NCBI GenBank assembly: GCA_949299165.1 | Contig: CASFZJ010000017.1 | Coordinates: 1-35,882, forward strand | Direction: 5' to 3' | Length of the DNA: 35,882 nucleotides | Source: an uncultured bacterium | GTDB taxonomy: Bacteria > Bacillota_I > Bacilli_A > RFN20 > CAG-826 | In this document: piece by piece, positions 425-35,145 of the stretch | Layout of the letters: every line of letters starts with the position of its first letter | Numbering within the stretch: position 1 is the first letter of the stretch | Notes under the pieces: model-generated | Told to the model about the DNA's origin: nothing | What the model saw: only the letters and a program-made list of their open reading frames with translations | The model's database searches: none | Translations under genes and position numbers: made by a program

Positions 425-442
425 TAGTTTAGTTTTGCAAGG
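425..442 (-). repeat. copy 1 of a four-copy 3'-UTR element
   Basis: On the minus strand, shortly after the stop of the CBS-domain gene, comes CCTTGCAAAACTAAACTA, preceded by an A-run and followed by T-runs. It matches elements at 16336, 29555 and 34990 (consensus CCYTGCAAAACTCAATTA). The position between two co-directional units suggests a transcript end. There is no strong GC hairpin. Confidence 0.6.
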
Positions 443-453
443 TTTTTGAAAAA

Positions 454-10533: not shown

Positions 10534-11565
10534 CTATTTAATTGCTTCGACAAATGCAGCCCAAGTTTTAACTTCACCTTTGTAAGCTTTAGCAAGAATG
10601 TCGGCTGTAACATTTTCTACTGCTGTATTTTTAACATTTACAATTGGGACAACAGCATCTTTACAAATGGCACCGTTTGTATTTTTATCATTTAATTGTG
10701 CTTTTTCTTCAGCGTTAATTTCTCTTGATAAGAAGCCAATATCACCATAAATATCAGCACTTTCTCCAGAAGCTGTAACTCCTTTAACAGCATCACCAGA
10801 TCCAGTTTGATTTGAAGTAACTGAACAACCTGTTGCTTCTTTAAATGCTGCAGACAATCCATTTAAAACGTTTTGAACTGATGTAGAACCACAAGTTTTT
10901 AATTCAACACCATTAATATCAAGATTTGGGAACTTTTCTTTAGCAATATCAGACCATTTTTTAGCTTCGATAACATTTTTAGTTAAAATACCACCTTCAG
11001 CAGCAATAGCTTGTAAACCTTCTGAAGATTCTGTCATGAAAACTCGAAATGCTTCTTTTGCTGTAGCTTTTTTATCATCTGTATAAAGTGCTGAATCTCT
11101 TACAACATAGTTGAAGCTTCTTTGTAGGCCATAAGTTCCATCAACAACGGTTTCACTTGAAGCAGCAACACCATTGAATTTTAAACCTTTAATTGTAGAA
11201 ACAGTGTCGAGTGAATCTAATGAACAGTAACCTAAAGCGTATTCATCGTTTCCAACAGCTGTCATGATAGCACCATTGCTGGATTGTGAAGAAACTGTAA
11301 CACCTTTATTCCATTTATCGTCTTTTTTGACATCGCCATATCCAATTCCTTCGAAGAAACATTCTCTAGTTCCACTAGTAGTTTCTCTTGAATAAAGTGA
11401 AATGCTTTTTGATGTATCGAAAGTATCATCATTGTTATTGTTGTTATTTTCATCTCCACCTGGATTTTCTGGAGTTGGGTCAGGTGTATCACCACCACAA
11501 GATACGACTGTAGCTCCCAAAATTCCTGTAAGAGCTAAACTGCAAAGTAATAAAATCTTTTTCAT
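10534..11565 (-). CDS. pstS: phosphate-binding lipoprotein PstS, permuted domain order
   Basis: A 343-residue lipoprotein. The signal peptide ends in VVSC (C23) and is followed by an Asn/Pro/Gly-rich linker to about residue 50. The phosphate-binding motifs are present but in swapped order: SGTR (64-67), usually in the second half of PstS, comes first, while GSTSV (226-230), GSG (255-257) and DIGFLSRE (275-282), usually N-terminal, come last. I chose the ATG at 11565 because it has GAGGAG upstream and starts a proper signal peptide; the frame stays open to 11622 but that extension has no SD. The promoter has Pho-box-like repeats. From memory, some clostridial PstS share this order. Confidence 0.93.
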   Translation of the reverse strand: MKKILLLCSLALTGILGATVVSCGGDTPDPTPENPGGDENNNNNNDDTFDTSKSISLYSRETTSGTRECFFEGIGYGDVKKDDKWNKGVTVSSQSSNGAIMTAVGNDEYALGYCSLDSLDTVSTIKGLKFNGVAASSETVVDGTYGLQRSFNYVVRDSALYTDDKKATAKEAFRVFMTESSEGLQAIAAEGGILTKNVIEAKKWSDIAKEKFPNLDINGVELKTCGSTSVQNVLNGLSAAFKEATGCSVTSNQTGSGDAVKGVTASGESADIYGDIGFLSREINAEEKAQLNDKNTNGAICKDAVVPIVNVKNTAVENVTADILAKAYKGEVKTWAAFVEAIK

Positions 11566-11608
11566 TTTCTTCTCCTCTTTACGCCAATAACTATAAAGAT
11601 TTGAAAAA

Positions 11609-11654
11609 TGTAAAAATATCATAGAATTGTAAAAGATTGTAAAGAAATTGTAAA
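11609..11654 (-). promoter_or_regulatory. pstS promoter with PhoP-box-like TTTACA repeats
   Basis: On the minus strand TTTACA occurs at 11654-11649, 11643-11638 and 11633-11628 (steps of 11 and 10 bp) and again at 11614-11609. B. subtilis PhoP binds TTAACA-like repeats every 11 bp, so this is a Pho box by analogy. A -10 TATGAT lies at 11623-11618 and the repeats cover the -35 position, as expected for activation. Predicted UTR is about 45 nt. Confidence 0.75.
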
Positions 11655-11689
11655 AATCAATAATTCTTAAATTTCATGAAGTTAAAAAA

Positions 11690-11858
11690 CCAGAAATTTA
11701 ATTAAATTTCCAGAAAAAATGATTATATTTCCAGGGAAAATGCATAAAAATCCTGGAAAAATGATAAAATTTCCGGAAAAAAAGTGAAAAAAATATAGAA
11801 AAAAAGACAAATTTCCGTAGAAAAATATCAAAAAATCCTAAGAAAACACTACTTTCCC
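11690..11858. repeat. 21-bp-phased degenerate repeat array (TTTCC-GGAAA units)
   Basis: CC dinucleotides centred in AT-rich TTTCC(N)GGAAA-like units fall at 11690, 11710, 11731, 11752, 11773, 11815, 11837 and 11856, that is every 20-22 bp, with one degenerate unit near 11794. The best units read ATTTCCAGGGAAAATG and ATTTCCGGAAAA. The array fills the interval between the galU 3' end and the pstS promoter. There is no open frame through it. It is too degenerate and closely spaced for CRISPR. Confidence 0.75.
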
Positions 11859-11924
11859 AGACAAACCAACAATAAACAAAAAACGAGAAGATGCTATATT
11901 CTTAGGAAATTTTAAAAAATAAAT

Positions 11925-12800
11925 TTATTTGATATTTAATTCTTTTATATGTTTAATTAACCATTCTCTAAATTCTTCTCTTGATAAGCCTACATCAATA
12001 ATTGCTTCTAGATATCCTAATTTATCTCCACAATCATAGCGTTTACCTTCAAAATCATAATAATAAACTTCTTCTTTTTTCATGATTTCAGCAATTGCAT
12101 CTGTTAATTGAATTTCGCCACCTGCTCCACGAGGTGTATTTTCTAGTTCGTCAAAAATTCTTGCGTTGAAAACCCATTTACCTAAACTCGCTAAATCACT
12201 TGGTGCTTCATTTAATTTAGGTTTTTCTACAATTCCATTTAATTGATATAAACGATCGCCAAGTTGTTTTTCGACTTTCATCGCACCATATTTAACAATG
12301 TTTTCGTGTGCAACTTTTTGCCCACCAACAACAGTTTTTCCACCAATCTTTTCAAAAACTTCAACTAGCTGTTTAACTGGCGAATCTCCTTTATATGTGC
12401 AAATATCATCTCCACAGCAAACAACAAAGTTATCATCTTTAACAACTGATTTTGCTTGTAAAACAGCATGTCCTAAACCTAATTGTTCATGTTGAATGAC
12501 AAAATGATAATTTGCTTTTGTTCCTATATGATGAATTATTTTGGCAAAATCATCTTTTCCATGTTCAATTAAATCTTTTTCATATTCTTCATCTAAAGAA
12601 TAATATTTTCTGATATCATCTTTACCTTCAGAAACAATAAAAACAATATCTGTTATTCCTGCTTCTAAACATTCTTCAACAATATAGTCGAGTGTTGGAC
12701 GATCAACGATAGGGCACATTTCTTTTGCTACGCCTTTTGTGATAGGTAAAAAACGTGTTCCTTTACCTGCGCAAGGGATAACCGCATACTTAACTTTCAT
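11925..12800 (-). CDS. galU: UTP-glucose-1-phosphate uridylyltransferase
   Basis: A 291-residue enzyme making UDP-glucose from UTP and glucose-1-phosphate. The N-terminal nucleotide-binding motif GKGTRFLPITKGVAKEM, VDRPTLDYIVEE, and VVCCGDDICT are typical, as is VEKPK later. Length matches bacterial GalU. UDP-glucose is needed for glycolipids/polysaccharide and for regenerating UDP-galactose in the Leloir pathway, which links it to the gal operon further along. It has its own promoter, with AGAGGA about 10 nt before the ATG. It is transcribed toward pstS but appears to be a separate unit. Confidence 0.97.
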   Translation of the reverse strand: MKVKYAVIPCAGKGTRFLPITKGVAKEMCPIVDRPTLDYIVEECLEAGITDIVFIVSEGKDDIRKYYSLDEEYEKDLIEHGKDDFAKIIHHIGTKANYHFVIQHEQLGLGHAVLQAKSVVKDDNFVVCCGDDICTYKGDSPVKQLVEVFEKIGGKTVVGGQKVAHENIVKYGAMKVEKQLGDRLYQLNGIVEKPKLNEAPSDLASLGKWVFNARIFDELENTPRGAGGEIQLTDAIAEIMKKEEVYYYDFEGKRYDCGDKLGYLEAIIDVGLSREEFREWLIKHIKELNIK

Positions 12801-16335: not shown

Positions 16336-16353
16336 TAATTGAGTTTTGCAGGG
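16336..16353 (-). repeat. copy 2 of the four-copy 3'-UTR element
   Basis: On the minus strand CCCTGCAAAACTCAATTA, between AAAATA and TTTTTT, 11 nt after the stop of the sensor lipoprotein gene and upstream of tex. It matches copy 3 exactly over the 18-nt core. Confidence 0.7.
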
Positions 16354-16364
16354 TATTTTAAAAA

Positions 16365-20677: not shown

Positions 20678-20715
20678 ATTGTATCAAAAAACATAGTGTT
20701 TTTTTCAAAAAATAG
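20678..20715 (-). promoter_or_regulatory. promoter region of the sensing operon
   Basis: On the minus strand TACAAT (20683-20678) ends 8 nt before the ATG. Upstream are two similar A/T-tract units containing CTATG/CTATT bordered by runs of A and T about 19 bp apart. They may be regulator sites or bent DNA. The -35 is unclear. The rest of the 173-bp gap to cca holds another A6/T6 hairpin (AAAAAAG-ATATA-CTTTTTT) that could end the cca transcript. Confidence 0.45.
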
Positions 20716-20842
20716 TACTTTTTTTAATTTTTCCCTAAGATTTATATGAATTTCTGGACTTTATTTAAAAAAGTATATCTTTTTTGAAAATTCACTAGTT
20801 TTTTGATAATTTGTTATGGCTTTTTTATAATATTTCCTAGAT

Positions 20843-22180
20843 TTATAGATACTTTTCCACATTTGATAAAAGATACTTTTTTGAATTTTTAGTCGGATCA
20901 TCAATAACAACTTTTAGCATTTTTGAAAGAATTTTACCAATATCTTTGCCCTTAAATCCTAAACCTATTAGGTCTTCTCCATTTACTTTTAAATCTTTAA
21001 GTGTAAGACAATCATGATTCTCCATTATTTTCAAATAATAATCCTCAATTAGCTTATTATCATTTAGTCTCTTTTCTTTATCCAAATCACTTTGTGCCAT
21101 AATATCACATCTTCTTATTTCAAGAAGATATGGAAATAATTCTGGGGAAATTTTATTGATTGCTCTTCTTACATATTTTTCTTTTGGAATAATTTCATCA
21201 TCATGATGTGCGACTAAAAAGCAAACTTTTTTAATAATTAAATTAGGAAATTTTAATGATTTTAAACAGAGATTTGCAAGGTTTTCTCTCAAAATTGAGT
21301 GTTTATAAAAATGGGTAATGCCCTTTTCATCGAAAGATTTTGTGCCCGGTTTTCCAAAATCATGAAACAGTAAAGCTAATCTAATTATTAAATCTATTTT
21401 TGAAACTTTAATTGCTTCTATTGTATGTCTTCCTACATCGTAAATATGATGAGGATTTTCTTGTTTAGTATTTAATAAGATATCAAAATCACTCAGAAAA
21501 TATTTAGTCAATCCAAGTTCGCTTGCTTCAATAAGTTTTTCAGGGTGATTCGACATTAAAATCTTTACAAATTCATCTCTTATTCTTTCCTTGGATATTT
21601 TTTCTAATAAATATGCTAAATCTTTCATTGCTCTTTTAGTGTTATCTTCAATTTCAAAACCTAGTTGAGCACTAAATCTTATTGCTCTTAATATTCTTAA
21701 GCCATCCTCACTAAATCTTTTGTATGGATCATCAATTGATCTAATAACTTTATTATTTAAATCACTTAACCCATCAAAATAATCAACTAACCCCACTTTA
21801 TCGTTGTATGCAAAAGCATTAATTGTAAAATCTCTTCTTCTTAAATCTTCTTTCAATGATTTAGTAAATGTAACACTTTTTGGATGACGATTGTCTAAGT
21901 ATTCTCCATCAATTCTAAAAGTAGTTACTTCGTATGATTTCTTATTTATTCTTACAGTTACAGTTCCATGCTTTAAACCAGTATCAATTGTTTTAGCGAA
22001 TAATTCCTTAATTTCTTGAGGTTCTGCATTTGTTGTAACATCAAAATCGTTTGGCTCACGATTTAATAATGCGTCGCGAACACAACCGCCCACAACATAA
22101 GCTTCAAAATTAGCTTCATGTAATGTTTTTAAAATAATCCCTACTTCATCAGGTATTTTCATCTTAAAATTTTGAGACAT
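20843..22180 (-). CDS. cca: CCA tRNA nucleotidyltransferase (HD-containing)
   Basis: A 445-residue class-II nucleotidyltransferase. It has VVGGCVRDALL with catalytic DFD (D45, D47), the RRDFTINA segment, and RFSEDGLRILRAIRF (ribose/base-recognition region). An HD domain follows (HDFGKPGT about 270; HHDDE about 325), as in versions with added phosphohydrolase activity. It adds or repairs the 3' CCA of tRNAs; the one tRNA in this window already encodes CCA, so repair is its likely job there. No SD; TAAAAT ends 6 nt before the ATG, suggesting a leaderless mRNA. An internal ATG at codon 7 is an alternative. Confidence 0.95.
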   Translation of the reverse strand: MSQNFKMKIPDEVGIILKTLHEANFEAYVVGGCVRDALLNREPNDFDVTTNAEPQEIKELFAKTIDTGLKHGTVTVRINKKSYEVTTFRIDGEYLDNRHPKSVTFTKSLKEDLRRRDFTINAFAYNDKVGLVDYFDGLSDLNNKVIRSIDDPYKRFSEDGLRILRAIRFSAQLGFEIEDNTKRAMKDLAYLLEKISKERIRDEFVKILMSNHPEKLIEASELGLTKYFLSDFDILLNTKQENPHHIYDVGRHTIEAIKVSKIDLIIRLALLFHDFGKPGTKSFDEKGITHFYKHSILRENLANLCLKSLKFPNLIIKKVCFLVAHHDDEIIPKEKYVRRAINKISPELFPYLLEIRRCDIMAQSDLDKEKRLNDNKLIEDYYLKIMENHDCLTLKDLKVNGEDLIGLGFKGKDIGKILSKMLKVVIDDPTKNSKKYLLSNVEKYL

Positions 22181-28974: not shown

Positions 28975-29538
28975 ATGGCACCAGAAATTGTACTTTCTAG
29001 AGAAGAAATTGATGAAATTATTACAAAAGTAGCTGATGAACTTAATGCAATGTATGAAAACAAGAACACAATTCCAGTCTTAATCGGAGTCTTAAAAGGC
29101 GCCTTACCTTTCATGATGGACTTAATTAAGAAATTAAAATTTGATCTTGTTATCGATTTTATTCAAGTAACAAGTTATAGTGGCACTTCATCTACTGGAG
29201 TTATTCATTTAAAGAAAGATATTACTACAGATATTAAGAATAGAGATGTAATCATTGTTGAAGACATCATTGATACAGGTTTAACACTTAACTATTTAAA
29301 ACAATATATTCAACTCAATTACTCTCCAAGAGATATAAAGATTGTTTGTTTTGTTGATAAAAAACCTTTAAGAAAAGTCGATTTAAAAGCTGATGTTGTG
29401 GGTATCACAATGAATCAAGCTAAGTTCCTAGTTGGTTATGGTTTTGACTATAACGAAATCGGAAGAAACATAGGTTATGTCTTTGTTCCTTCTAAAAAAC
29501 AACTTGAAGAATGGGATAAAAAACTTAAAGAAAACTAA
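28975..29538 (+). CDS. hpt: hypoxanthine-guanine phosphoribosyltransferase
   Basis: A 187-residue purine-salvage enzyme. The PRPP-binding motif VIIVEDIIDTGLTL, the N-terminal VLIGVLKGALPFMMDL and the flexible-loop SYSGTSSTGV are typical, as is VGYGFDYNEIGRN near the C-terminus. It converts hypoxanthine/guanine plus PRPP to IMP/GMP. GAGGG lies 7 nt before the ATG. Its stop codon overlaps that of the convergent MFS-like gene, and an 18-nt conserved element follows it. Confidence 0.97.
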   Translation: MAPEIVLSREEIDEIITKVADELNAMYENKNTIPVLIGVLKGALPFMMDLIKKLKFDLVIDFIQVTSYSGTSSTGVIHLKKDITTDIKNRDVIIVEDIIDTGLTLNYLKQYIQLNYSPRDIKIVCFVDKKPLRKVDLKADVVGITMNQAKFLVGYGFDYNEIGRNIGYVFVPSKKQLEEWDKKLKEN

Positions 29539-30626
29539 TTTTTCTTTACAAAAACCCTGCAAAACTCAATTATTTTTGATTTATTAGATAAAATTTCGAA
29601 TATTAAGAAATACAATAAAATCAATAAATGTAGAACCACAAAAGCAACGAAAGTTGCTTTTTTCATTTCTTCATTTATTCCTAAAAGTAGCAAATTAGGT
29701 ACAAGCAAGAAGAAAGCACTTAAGCCTAAACTAGTCGCTTCAAATTCATATAATAATTTTCTTAAATAATCTAATGTTAAAGGCATTAAAATATTAATTG
29801 CTAATGTGAAGAAAATAATTCCGGTTAAATCCTCGATAAATATAGAAGAAATAATGCAAGTTAATATTGAAACCATCAAGCAAATGCCTTTTGGAATAAA
29901 TCCACCAATAATTTTTCCTCCAAAAGATACAATTGATACTACCAAAAAGAAATAAGTTATATTAATGGATGGAGTTAATTTGCCTAAAGAACCTCTAAAG
30001 AAAATACTAAAAACTACTAGAAAAATTAAAATAATGTAGTTAATTTTTGAAGTTTCAATTTTTCTATATTTTCTTAAAAAATTCCCAGAAATTTTATCAT
30101 TTTTCCTAGGATTTTTTTCGAAATATGAGCTATATAAAATGTATGAAAAATATAGAAAAACGCCAATTCCTAAAAATACGAATCTGATTATTTCATTTAG
30201 AAAACTAAATCCTATTCCTAAACCTAAAACACCAGGTGCGATAAAGATTCCTAACGGCACACTGCTTTCACTTTCCTTTAATATATCTTTACTAAACGCA
30301 ACGTGAAACATTGCGTTTCCTAATCCTAAAAAGATAAATGAAATATAAACAAGAGGAATAAAAGCGCCTAAAATCACTAAGGCAATTGAAAGATAACAAA
30401 AATACTTTTTTGTCATTTCAAAACGATCAATTATAAACCCTATAAAAGGCTGTAATGCAAAAGCTAAAACATTATAAAGCAAGATCCAATAAAACAAATT
30501 CACATCATTTTGATAAACAAAATAAAAAGTAGAAATCGGGAAAAAATCCACTAAAAAATGAAAAAAACCTGCAAAACCTACATTAATTAATAAATTTCTA
30601 TTTAGATCGCTACTTATTTCTTTCAT
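29535..30626 (-). CDS. MFS-like membrane transporter, substrate unknown
   Basis: A 363-residue polytopic protein with about 11 TM segments. Between TM2 and TM3 lies an MFS-like loop, GFIIDRFEMTKKY, resembling motif A (GxLaDrxGrk). It is short for an MFS protein (usually 400 or more). It is the last gene of the gal operon, its ATG overlapping the preceding membrane gene by 17 nt without a clear SD, so it is probably coupled. It may export or import a sugar-related compound, but that is a guess from context. Its C-terminal residues are encoded by the antisense of a repeated element. Confidence 0.75.
   Translation of the reverse strand: MKEISSDLNRNLLINVGFAGFFHFLVDFFPISTFYFVYQNDVNLFYWILLYNVLAFALQPFIGFIIDRFEMTKKYFCYLSIALVILGAFIPLVYISFIFLGLGNAMFHVAFSKDILKESESSVPLGIFIAPGVLGLGIGFSFLNEIIRFVFLGIGVFLYFSYILYSSYFEKNPRKNDKISGNFLRKYRKIETSKINYIILIFLVVFSIFFRGSLGKLTPSINITYFFLVVSIVSFGGKIIGGFIPKGICLMVSILTCIISSIFIEDLTGIIFFTLAINILMPLTLDYLRKLLYEFEATSLGLSAFFLLVPNLLLLGINEEMKKATFVAFVVLHLLILLYFLIFEILSNKSKIIEFCRVFVKKN
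29555..29572 (+). repeat. copy 3 of the four-copy 3'-UTR element
   Basis: CCCTGCAAAACTCAATTA on the plus strand, 16 nt after the hpt stop, between ACAAAAA and TTTTTG which can pair. On the other strand it encodes the last residues (IIEFCRVF) of the MFS-like protein. Confidence 0.7.
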
Positions 30627-33909: not shown

Positions 33910-34898
33910 TATTTTGTCTCCTTAAACTTATAGTCGATATAGTGACGATATTTTTCATCTTTTCTTAAAGTAATTGATTCACGATCAAATACAAATCTTT
34001 GAGGTTCTAAAGCAATACCTCTTCTCATTCCAAAATCCTCTCTGTTTTTAAAATTGAGTGGAGACATAGTATTATCAACATAAACATTCATTGCTGGATA
34101 GTCTGTCGTTAAAGTCATAGTTACATCTGGACTCTTTAAAATAACTTTTCCAATTTTGTCATCAAACAAGAATGTATCATCGATTGTTTTCTTAAAATCA
34201 TGTTTTTCGATTTTATCTAGTCTTGGACTGAGTTTTGATGATTTTCTAAAATCTAAAACCTCTGGAATATCTTTAATTCCATTAATTAAAAGCGTTTCAT
34301 CTGTTGTCGCGACTCTATCGCAATTCATTTTTAAATAATAAGCTGAAATATCTTTTGAATTAGCAAAGTTAAAATACATATGATTTGAAAGATTAACAAA
34401 AGTTGCTTCGCTTGGAGTTGTAGCCTTTTGATACATCTTTATTTCATCTTTCCCTTTTAAGAATTCATAAACTACATTAATTCTCGCTTTTCCCGGAAAG
34501 CCATTTTCATTCTTTTTAGTAGCGATAGAAAAGTTTACAGCAAGTTTTTTATTGCTTTCTTTAACACTCACTTTCCAATTTTTGAATGAAATTGAACCCT
34601 TTTTTCCACCATGTAAAGAAAAATCAAAAGATCCATCAGGTGAAAGATGATATTCTTCGCCTTCTAAAATTCCATCCTTCTTTAATCTCCCCGCAACAAC
34701 ACCTAAAGTTTTTCCATAAAAAGCACTTGAATGCATATAATCTGAAAATTCTTTAAGTTCAAGTATGACAGGTTTGTCTTTAAAAGAAAGCTCATAAACA
34801 CCAGCACCATAGGTTGAAAGTGTTGCTTTTAAATTTAATTCATTATCAACGTGTATAAGGTGCACGCCGTTTCCTAACGTTTCAATATTATATTTCAT
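33909..34898 (-). CDS. galM: aldose 1-epimerase (galactose mutarotase)
   Basis: A 329-residue mutarotase converting beta- to alpha-galactose for GalK. Family motifs are TLGVVAGRLK, FSLHGGKKG (catalytic-region His), NLSNHMYFNFAN, DDTFLFDD and GIALEPQRFVFD (Glu of the active site). It is the first gene of galM-galT-galK. GGGAGG lies 9-10 nt before the ATG, and a 26-bp palindrome covers its -10. Length is normal. Confidence 0.95.
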   Translation of the reverse strand: MKYNIETLGNGVHLIHVDNELNLKATLSTYGAGVYELSFKDKPVILELKEFSDYMHSSAFYGKTLGVVAGRLKKDGILEGEEYHLSPDGSFDFSLHGGKKGSISFKNWKVSVKESNKKLAVNFSIATKKNENGFPGKARINVVYEFLKGKDEIKMYQKATTPSEATFVNLSNHMYFNFANSKDISAYYLKMNCDRVATTDETLLINGIKDIPEVLDFRKSSKLSPRLDKIEKHDFKKTIDDTFLFDDKIGKVILKSPDVTMTLTTDYPAMNVYVDNTMSPLNFKNREDFGMRRGIALEPQRFVFDRESITLRKDEKYRHYIDYKFKETK

Positions 34899-34989: not shown

Positions 34990-35007
34990 TAATTGCGTTT
35001 TGCAAGG
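34990..35007 (-). repeat. copy 4 of the four-copy 3'-UTR element
   Basis: On the minus strand CCTTGCAAAACGCAATTA between TTTAAAAAA and TTTTTTAAA, which form a 9-bp A-T stem. No annotated minus-strand gene ends here, which hints that a transcript (read-through from guaA or an unknown RNA) does. Confidence 0.65.
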
Positions 35008-35145
35008 TTTTTTAAATAAACAATCGCTTTTTAAACATTTTCAACTATTTAATTTATTAATCTATGCAGTATACAAAAGAAACGTACTTAAATCGCAAAG
35101 TCCTATATTTATTTAATGTAGAGTGAATTTGAAAATAAATTAAAT

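Follow-up and report, generated by a model that had tools for sequence, protein, structure and literature searches.

The window, that is, the whole 35,882-nucleotide stretch of DNA that was analysed, carries on its minus strand the pstS gene (10534..11622), which leads a pst-pho operon, and galU (11925..12800), whose 3′ end points toward the gap between the two; the assignments come from the NCBIfam PstS family and GalU models, both matched below the curated cut-off. Before pstS, at 11625..11656 (minus strand), we read from the sequence TTTACA direct repeats with 11 bp spacing, which we take to be PhoP/PhoB-box-like. Outside these repeats, the gap is occupied by an array of about nine units (11656..11872), defined by autocorrelation, a cyclic model and predicted curvature. 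A scan of the window with Rfam at gathering thresholds found a tRNA alone. The cores of the array lie near 11690, 11710, 11731, 11752, 11773, 11794, 11815, 11837 and 11856; the eight that the first-pass annotation had placed by their CC dinucleotides are all right, and the step missing from its series, near 11794, is filled by a degenerate unit (TATAG). No unit matches TTTCCNGGAAA exactly (the best have one mismatch), and the sole exact copy in the window is at 34489, outside the array. The self-identity of 11681-11870 is 0.533 at lag 21 relative to a dinucleotide-shuffle mean of 0.360 (z 5.3) and 0.581 at lag 42 (z 6.25), and the maximum over lags 5-69 equalled these values in 0 of 3000 shuffles; the 21-bp phasing claimed for the repeat thus survives a shuffle test of its period. 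TRF called a 21-bp array at 11701-11782, and the galU-pstS gap ranks first for G+C periodicity (z 7.3) among 134 intergenic regions of at least 90 bp. The cyclic model scores the array at 27.8-28.5 and widens it to about 11656-11872.

We trained cyclic hidden Markov models of 22 periods on 23 arrays of the source genome with six-fold hold-out. The held-out likelihood peaked at periods of 20-21 (322 and 318 nats), compared with 148 at 10 and 18 at 11; therefore the repeat spans two helical turns and not one, as had been proposed from the first reading. In each unit, A/T tracts alternate with two cores, one palindromic and CCTAGG-like, the other TGCA-like: the 21-state unit profile is palindromic about the CCTAGG-like core, with a weaker second core half a unit off, and the column profiles of the source genome and its sister species (G013) correlate with an r of 0.99. 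Among 242 core-to-core steps, 120 measure 21 bp, 70 measure 20, 19 measure 22 and 17 measure 19, in a count that permits single-base steps only and is hence biased toward 21; the mean spacing is about 20.6 bp, with 230 of the 242 steps falling within 18-23 bp. Each unit holds about 9 bits. The core varies in both length and letters (the commonest among 269 units, CCTAGG, occurs 11 times), and core pairing within units exceeds that given by the columns (z 4.3 at the C/G pair).

The galU-pstS array is confirmed as real and is more general than the first-pass annotation supposed: a search for the unit elsewhere in the genome recovered many arrays. A sequence-only profile of 42 bp (R1), built from seven non-overlapping two-unit windows of the pstS arrays, gave 114 matches in the source genome at E-values up to 10, many of them clustered at other loci; the 20 R1 loci that we read consist of an A/T tract, a short CC..GG core, an A/T tract and a TGCA-/GTAC-like core in alternation. 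Across 59 genomes at E-values up to 0.02, R1 matched 16 times in the source genome, 10 times in the sister, twice in G012, once each in G009 and G025, and nowhere in the other 54; those in G012, G009 and G025 were rejected as arrays, being read as coding matches with no array (model scores up to 8.1). A class-wide scan with R1, under strict filters by which weak matches are lost, found matches in one of 247 genomes, namely the source itself. An exact spaced pattern, which was too strict, had no match in the source genome, and k-mer over-representation in its intergenic DNA yielded no clear array word. Taking a 21-state cyclic model score above 10 as an array call, we detected 26 arrays in 435,882 b of the source genome and 24 in 276,358 b of the sister, with seven sister stretches and contig C2 having entered the sample because of their R1 matches; the 11 sister stretches not picked for matches contain 15 arrays in 211,503 b. 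The same threshold gave no array in 365,559 b from seven congeneric species of equal G+C. The 23 training arrays include some within the source sample, and the sister arrays lie outside the training set; the first array set derived from a profile of the pstS arrays and hence leans to that unit. The arrays are about 90-220 bp long and occur roughly once per 14-17 kb. Two more lie in the window: one at 20679..20874, mostly intergenic (score 14.9), with a sister array at the same place, and one at 30031..30163 within the minus-strand ORF 29535-30626 (score 21.2), also at the same place in the sister with 0.91 identity. The arrays are hence a family restricted to two sister species and not a private phosphate element; a search of listings and abstracts of open-licence PMC papers found no description of such arrays.

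PstS is present in 33 of the 59 genomes searched, the source included. The closest relative at the pst locus is the sister (MAG record CALVRY010000002.1), which shows the same gene order (galU, array, pstS) and a nearly identical TTTACA box region; its array is shorter and scrambled with respect to that of the source genome, with the phasing near 21 bp kept. The 21-bp spacing at this locus is accordingly shared with the sister species but not with other relatives: scores exceed 10 at two of 30 pstS loci, those of the source and the sister (17.7), with the next best at 8.8, and among 25 galU loci, again only in these two; in G017, galU adjoins pstS and the array is absent. The array does stand beside the presumed PhoP-box promoter, just upstream of the TTTACA repeats, but the enhancer role proposed for it there found no support: many relatives, read at pstS loci matched on the plus strand, show TTTACA repeats before the gene without an array, and similar arrays also occur in convergent gaps and inside genes. 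Because relatives carry the repeats without the array, we dropped a phosphate-specific role, and the phosphate link is most likely incidental.

The alternative offered at first reading, curved DNA, found support in prediction, with a z of 6.4 for the pstS array in the wedge model and of 5.7 for A-tract phasing. By the same predictive measures, 50 arrays have a mean wedge-model z of 3.85 relative to dinucleotide shuffles (47 of 50 above 2) and a mean A-tract z, counting tracts of at least 4 bp in helical phase, of 2.96 (44 of 50 above 2), as against 0.43 and 0.50, respectively, for 103 non-array intergenic regions. The arrays are thus predicted to be strongly curved, and the A-tract period within them is about 10.2 bp. 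Separately, 150 ORF pieces of the source sample show a weak period of about 10.9 bp in G+C. Plain curvature, for which a 10.5-bp period suffices, leaves the preference for two turns over one unexplained.

On gene maps drawn from long ORFs rather than annotation, 37 of the 50 arrays are intergenic, 5 straddle an edge and 8 lie in ORFs. Among gaps of at least 100 bp, those between convergent genes hold an array in 7 of 17 cases, those between tandem genes in 24 of 112 and those between divergent genes in 6 of 42 (convergent versus divergent, nominal p=0.037), a weak preference for gaps behind genes; arrays in tandem gaps tend to begin at the stop codon of the upstream gene. Reading the arrays as elements behind genes is countered by Escherichia coli, where it is the starts of genes and not their ends that have the maxima of A-tracts and of predicted plectoneme pinning (PMC4761138, PMC6301789). 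HU is encoded by a single-copy gene in the source and sister genomes, as in most of the genus, and one array (G000:C21:2811-2888, L098) lies directly upstream of the sole HU gene of the source genome (C21:2478-2747, minus strand); if HU has a preference for arrays, this one might serve in feedback. A search for a clade-specific architectural protein that covered HU and ParB/Noc-type HTH proteins found neither to be specific to the sister pair.

A separate dispersed motif, AAAAACCYTGCAAAACTCAAYTATTTTT, came to light alongside the arrays: its core, ACCYTGCAAAWCTCAA, occurs 122 times in the whole source genome with up to two mismatches, versus twice for the reversed pattern, and the motif lies at four places in the window (428-443, 16339-16354 and 34993-35008 on the minus strand; 29554-29569 on the plus strand). 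Its density per Mb is 108 in the source genome, 101 in the sister and 64 in G017, and lower elsewhere. Of 47 copies in the source sample, 29 are intergenic; of these, 19 lie no more than 40 bp from the 3′ end of a gene, and 3 lie equally near a 5′ end. Of 13 copies in aligned sequence, 12 are matches in the sister as well, and the motif falls within 60 bp of 3 of 26 arrays only. By analogy, the motif recalls uptake or chromosome-organising sites.

Over 105 kb aligned between the two sister species, 9 of 11 source arrays and 9 of 10 sister arrays have kept their place; of the two source arrays with no call in the sister, one falls below the threshold there and the locus of the other (L165), which scores 16.9, lay outside the scanned set. 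Sequence identity to the sister is 66% for intergenic arrays (1027 positions, including the pstS array at 0.36; about 0.73 when pstS is left out), lower in either case than the 84% of the remaining intergenic DNA, and coding sequence stands at 88%. Place and phase are thus kept and the letters change, as would be expected if a curvature-like bulk property or many weak sites matter. Arrays within genes allow the same comparison at the codon level. The RsmF-like gene that bears one can be aligned along its full protein length in 24 of the 25 other genomes of the genus, and in the last it is truncated by the end of a contig. In codon alignments, both this gene and a uridine-kinase-like gene hold the array in place with no added codons, in common with the sister. 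Among 12 homologous loci for each of these two genes, only the source and sister score above 10, with the next-best RsmF locus, at 9.9, near that threshold. When three genes are pooled, the arrays hold 10 synonymous differences of 82, as against 180 of 798 in the rest of the genes (one-sided p=0.017; 0.04 to 0.27 for single genes), which is no more than suggestive of reduced synonymous change inside in-gene arrays.

We favour, at a probability of about one half, the reading that the galU-pstS array belongs to a family, peculiar to this clade and spread over the genome, of arrays that are intrinsically curved, phased at two turns and structural in their chromosomal role, which we infer to be one in the nucleoid. 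With a palindromic core such as CCTAGG or CCNGG about every 20.6 bp, a TGCA-/GTAC-like core midway and A/T tracts between, the tracts would fall on one face of the helix and their bends would sum; the bends might then fix the tips of supercoiled loops or favour wrapping round an architectural protein such as HU, acting mostly in gaps behind genes. At the pst locus, the array would keep the transcription unit of galU apart from the promoter under phosphate control and carry no phosphate signal itself. Published work offers some precedent: single-molecule results in PMC6301789 have curvature pinning plectonemes, a nucleoid model in PMC4761138 puts A-tract clusters at loop tips, and PMC3940949 reports that A-tract periodicity correlates with bridging proteins and, among others, HU-alpha. 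In PMC7537859, by comparison, it is argued that most periodic dinucleotides are not DNA-bending ones.

The two-turn unit lies outside the reach of this curvature literature, and therefore the binding array suggested by the first-pass annotation stays alive. Each unit might be a weak, degenerate operator of a clade-specific dimeric DNA-binding protein assembling on one face of the helix at two turns per step, with curvature as a by-product, a possibility that we rate as somewhat unlikely. The period of two turns rather than one, the palindromic unit profile, the core pairing beyond the columns, the information content of the unit and the confinement of the family to two sister species speak for such an operator; the variable length and sequence of the core argue against a rigid dimeric one, and the search described above, restricted to HU and ParB/Noc-type HTH proteins, yielded no clade-specific candidate. 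A bolder version, which we hold to be distinctly doubtful, would see in the two sisters a sequence-coded chromatin: each genome would have some 80-100 arrays of a two-turn repeat, overlaid even on coding sequence, along which a putative clade-specific protein assembles in register, and the arrays would keep their position and phase as their letters turn over.

Alternatively, the arrays might act as RNA, adjacent palindromes forming hairpins that end or protect transcripts. The pstS array of the sister (L002:1325-1456) can form a hairpin of about 35 pairs on either strand (z about -8 relative to shuffles), several arrays contain clear inverted repeats, arrays exceed shuffles in hairpin potential, and 15 of 50 fold better than model-simulated ones, an excess that may be overstated as the simulations were run with no within-unit coupling. 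However, the pstS array of the source genome shows no folding advantage over simulated ones (z -0.40) and the complementarity of neighbouring units is not above column expectation (z -1.1 to -3.3); thus, hairpins do not define the family. Moreover, there are no terminator-like sites (a G+C-rich stem with a T run) in 11560-12000, the arrays on C3 and C4 adjoin separate terminators that look ordinary by eye, and arrays also occur inside genes and in divergent gaps, all of which makes a role as RNA unlikely. Still less probable is an origin in chance, in the general A/T-tract bias of a genome of 30% G+C, or in a functionless mutational habit of the clade. The faint coding periodicity near 10.9 bp and the rapid change of intergenic array sequence would suit such an origin; against it are the zero counts in genus controls of equal G+C and in 3000 shuffles, the sister arrays at the same places and the fewer synonymous changes inside in-gene arrays, and chance is excluded. 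An origin as a 21-bp minisatellite that has since decayed, or by insertion of a palindromic element (REP/MITE/RPE-like), is very improbable: despite the tandem look, the TRF call and a pstS array longer in the source genome than in the sister, unit identity is 0.502 between adjacent units, 0.491 between non-adjacent units of one array and 0.496 between arrays (within minus between, -0.008 ± 0.005), so that the units, no more alike within arrays than between them, are not decayed tandem duplications, and the two in-gene arrays tested have no extra length, with the RsmF-like homologues aligning whole.

Periodicity of curved DNA in bacteria is known chiefly as a weak signal averaged over whole genomes, and its role is contested. 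Discrete arrays in a sister pair, with none in relatives of equal composition, provide a natural comparison for the function of bends, and supply defined loci at which to seek an architectural protein.

Among known systems, PhoP/PhoB boxes are likewise direct repeats adjoining the pst promoter; they differ in being TTTACA-like at 11 bp spacing, and here stand beside the array and not within it. A unit that is CCTAGG-like at 20-21 bp led us to reject the array as such a box. The consensus of the Noc-binding site of Bacillus is TTTCCCGGGAAA. These sites are scattered over the chromosome, according to PMC4331003. The arrays share with them the palindromic look of TTTCC..GGAAA, and the source genome has a ParB/Noc-type HTH gene; however, the Noc site has a fixed centre, whereas the array cores vary and repeat in phase. 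Noc-binding sites were rejected as an identity, CCCGGG occurring once in 436 kb of the source sample. Closest in kind are the A-tract clusters of bacterial chromosomes (Tolstorukov et al., 2005, as cited in PMC3940949, PMC4060949 and PMC4761138), which similarly consist of helix-phased A/T tracts extending for about 100 bp, lie in coding as well as intergenic DNA, and have a predicted bend and a proposed nucleoid role. Unlike these, the arrays described here are discrete and built of a two-turn unit with distinct alternating cores; their A-tract period, about 10.2 bp, is shorter than the 10.9 bp of the coding DNA of the same genome, and they are found in two sister species only, with none in near relatives of matching composition.
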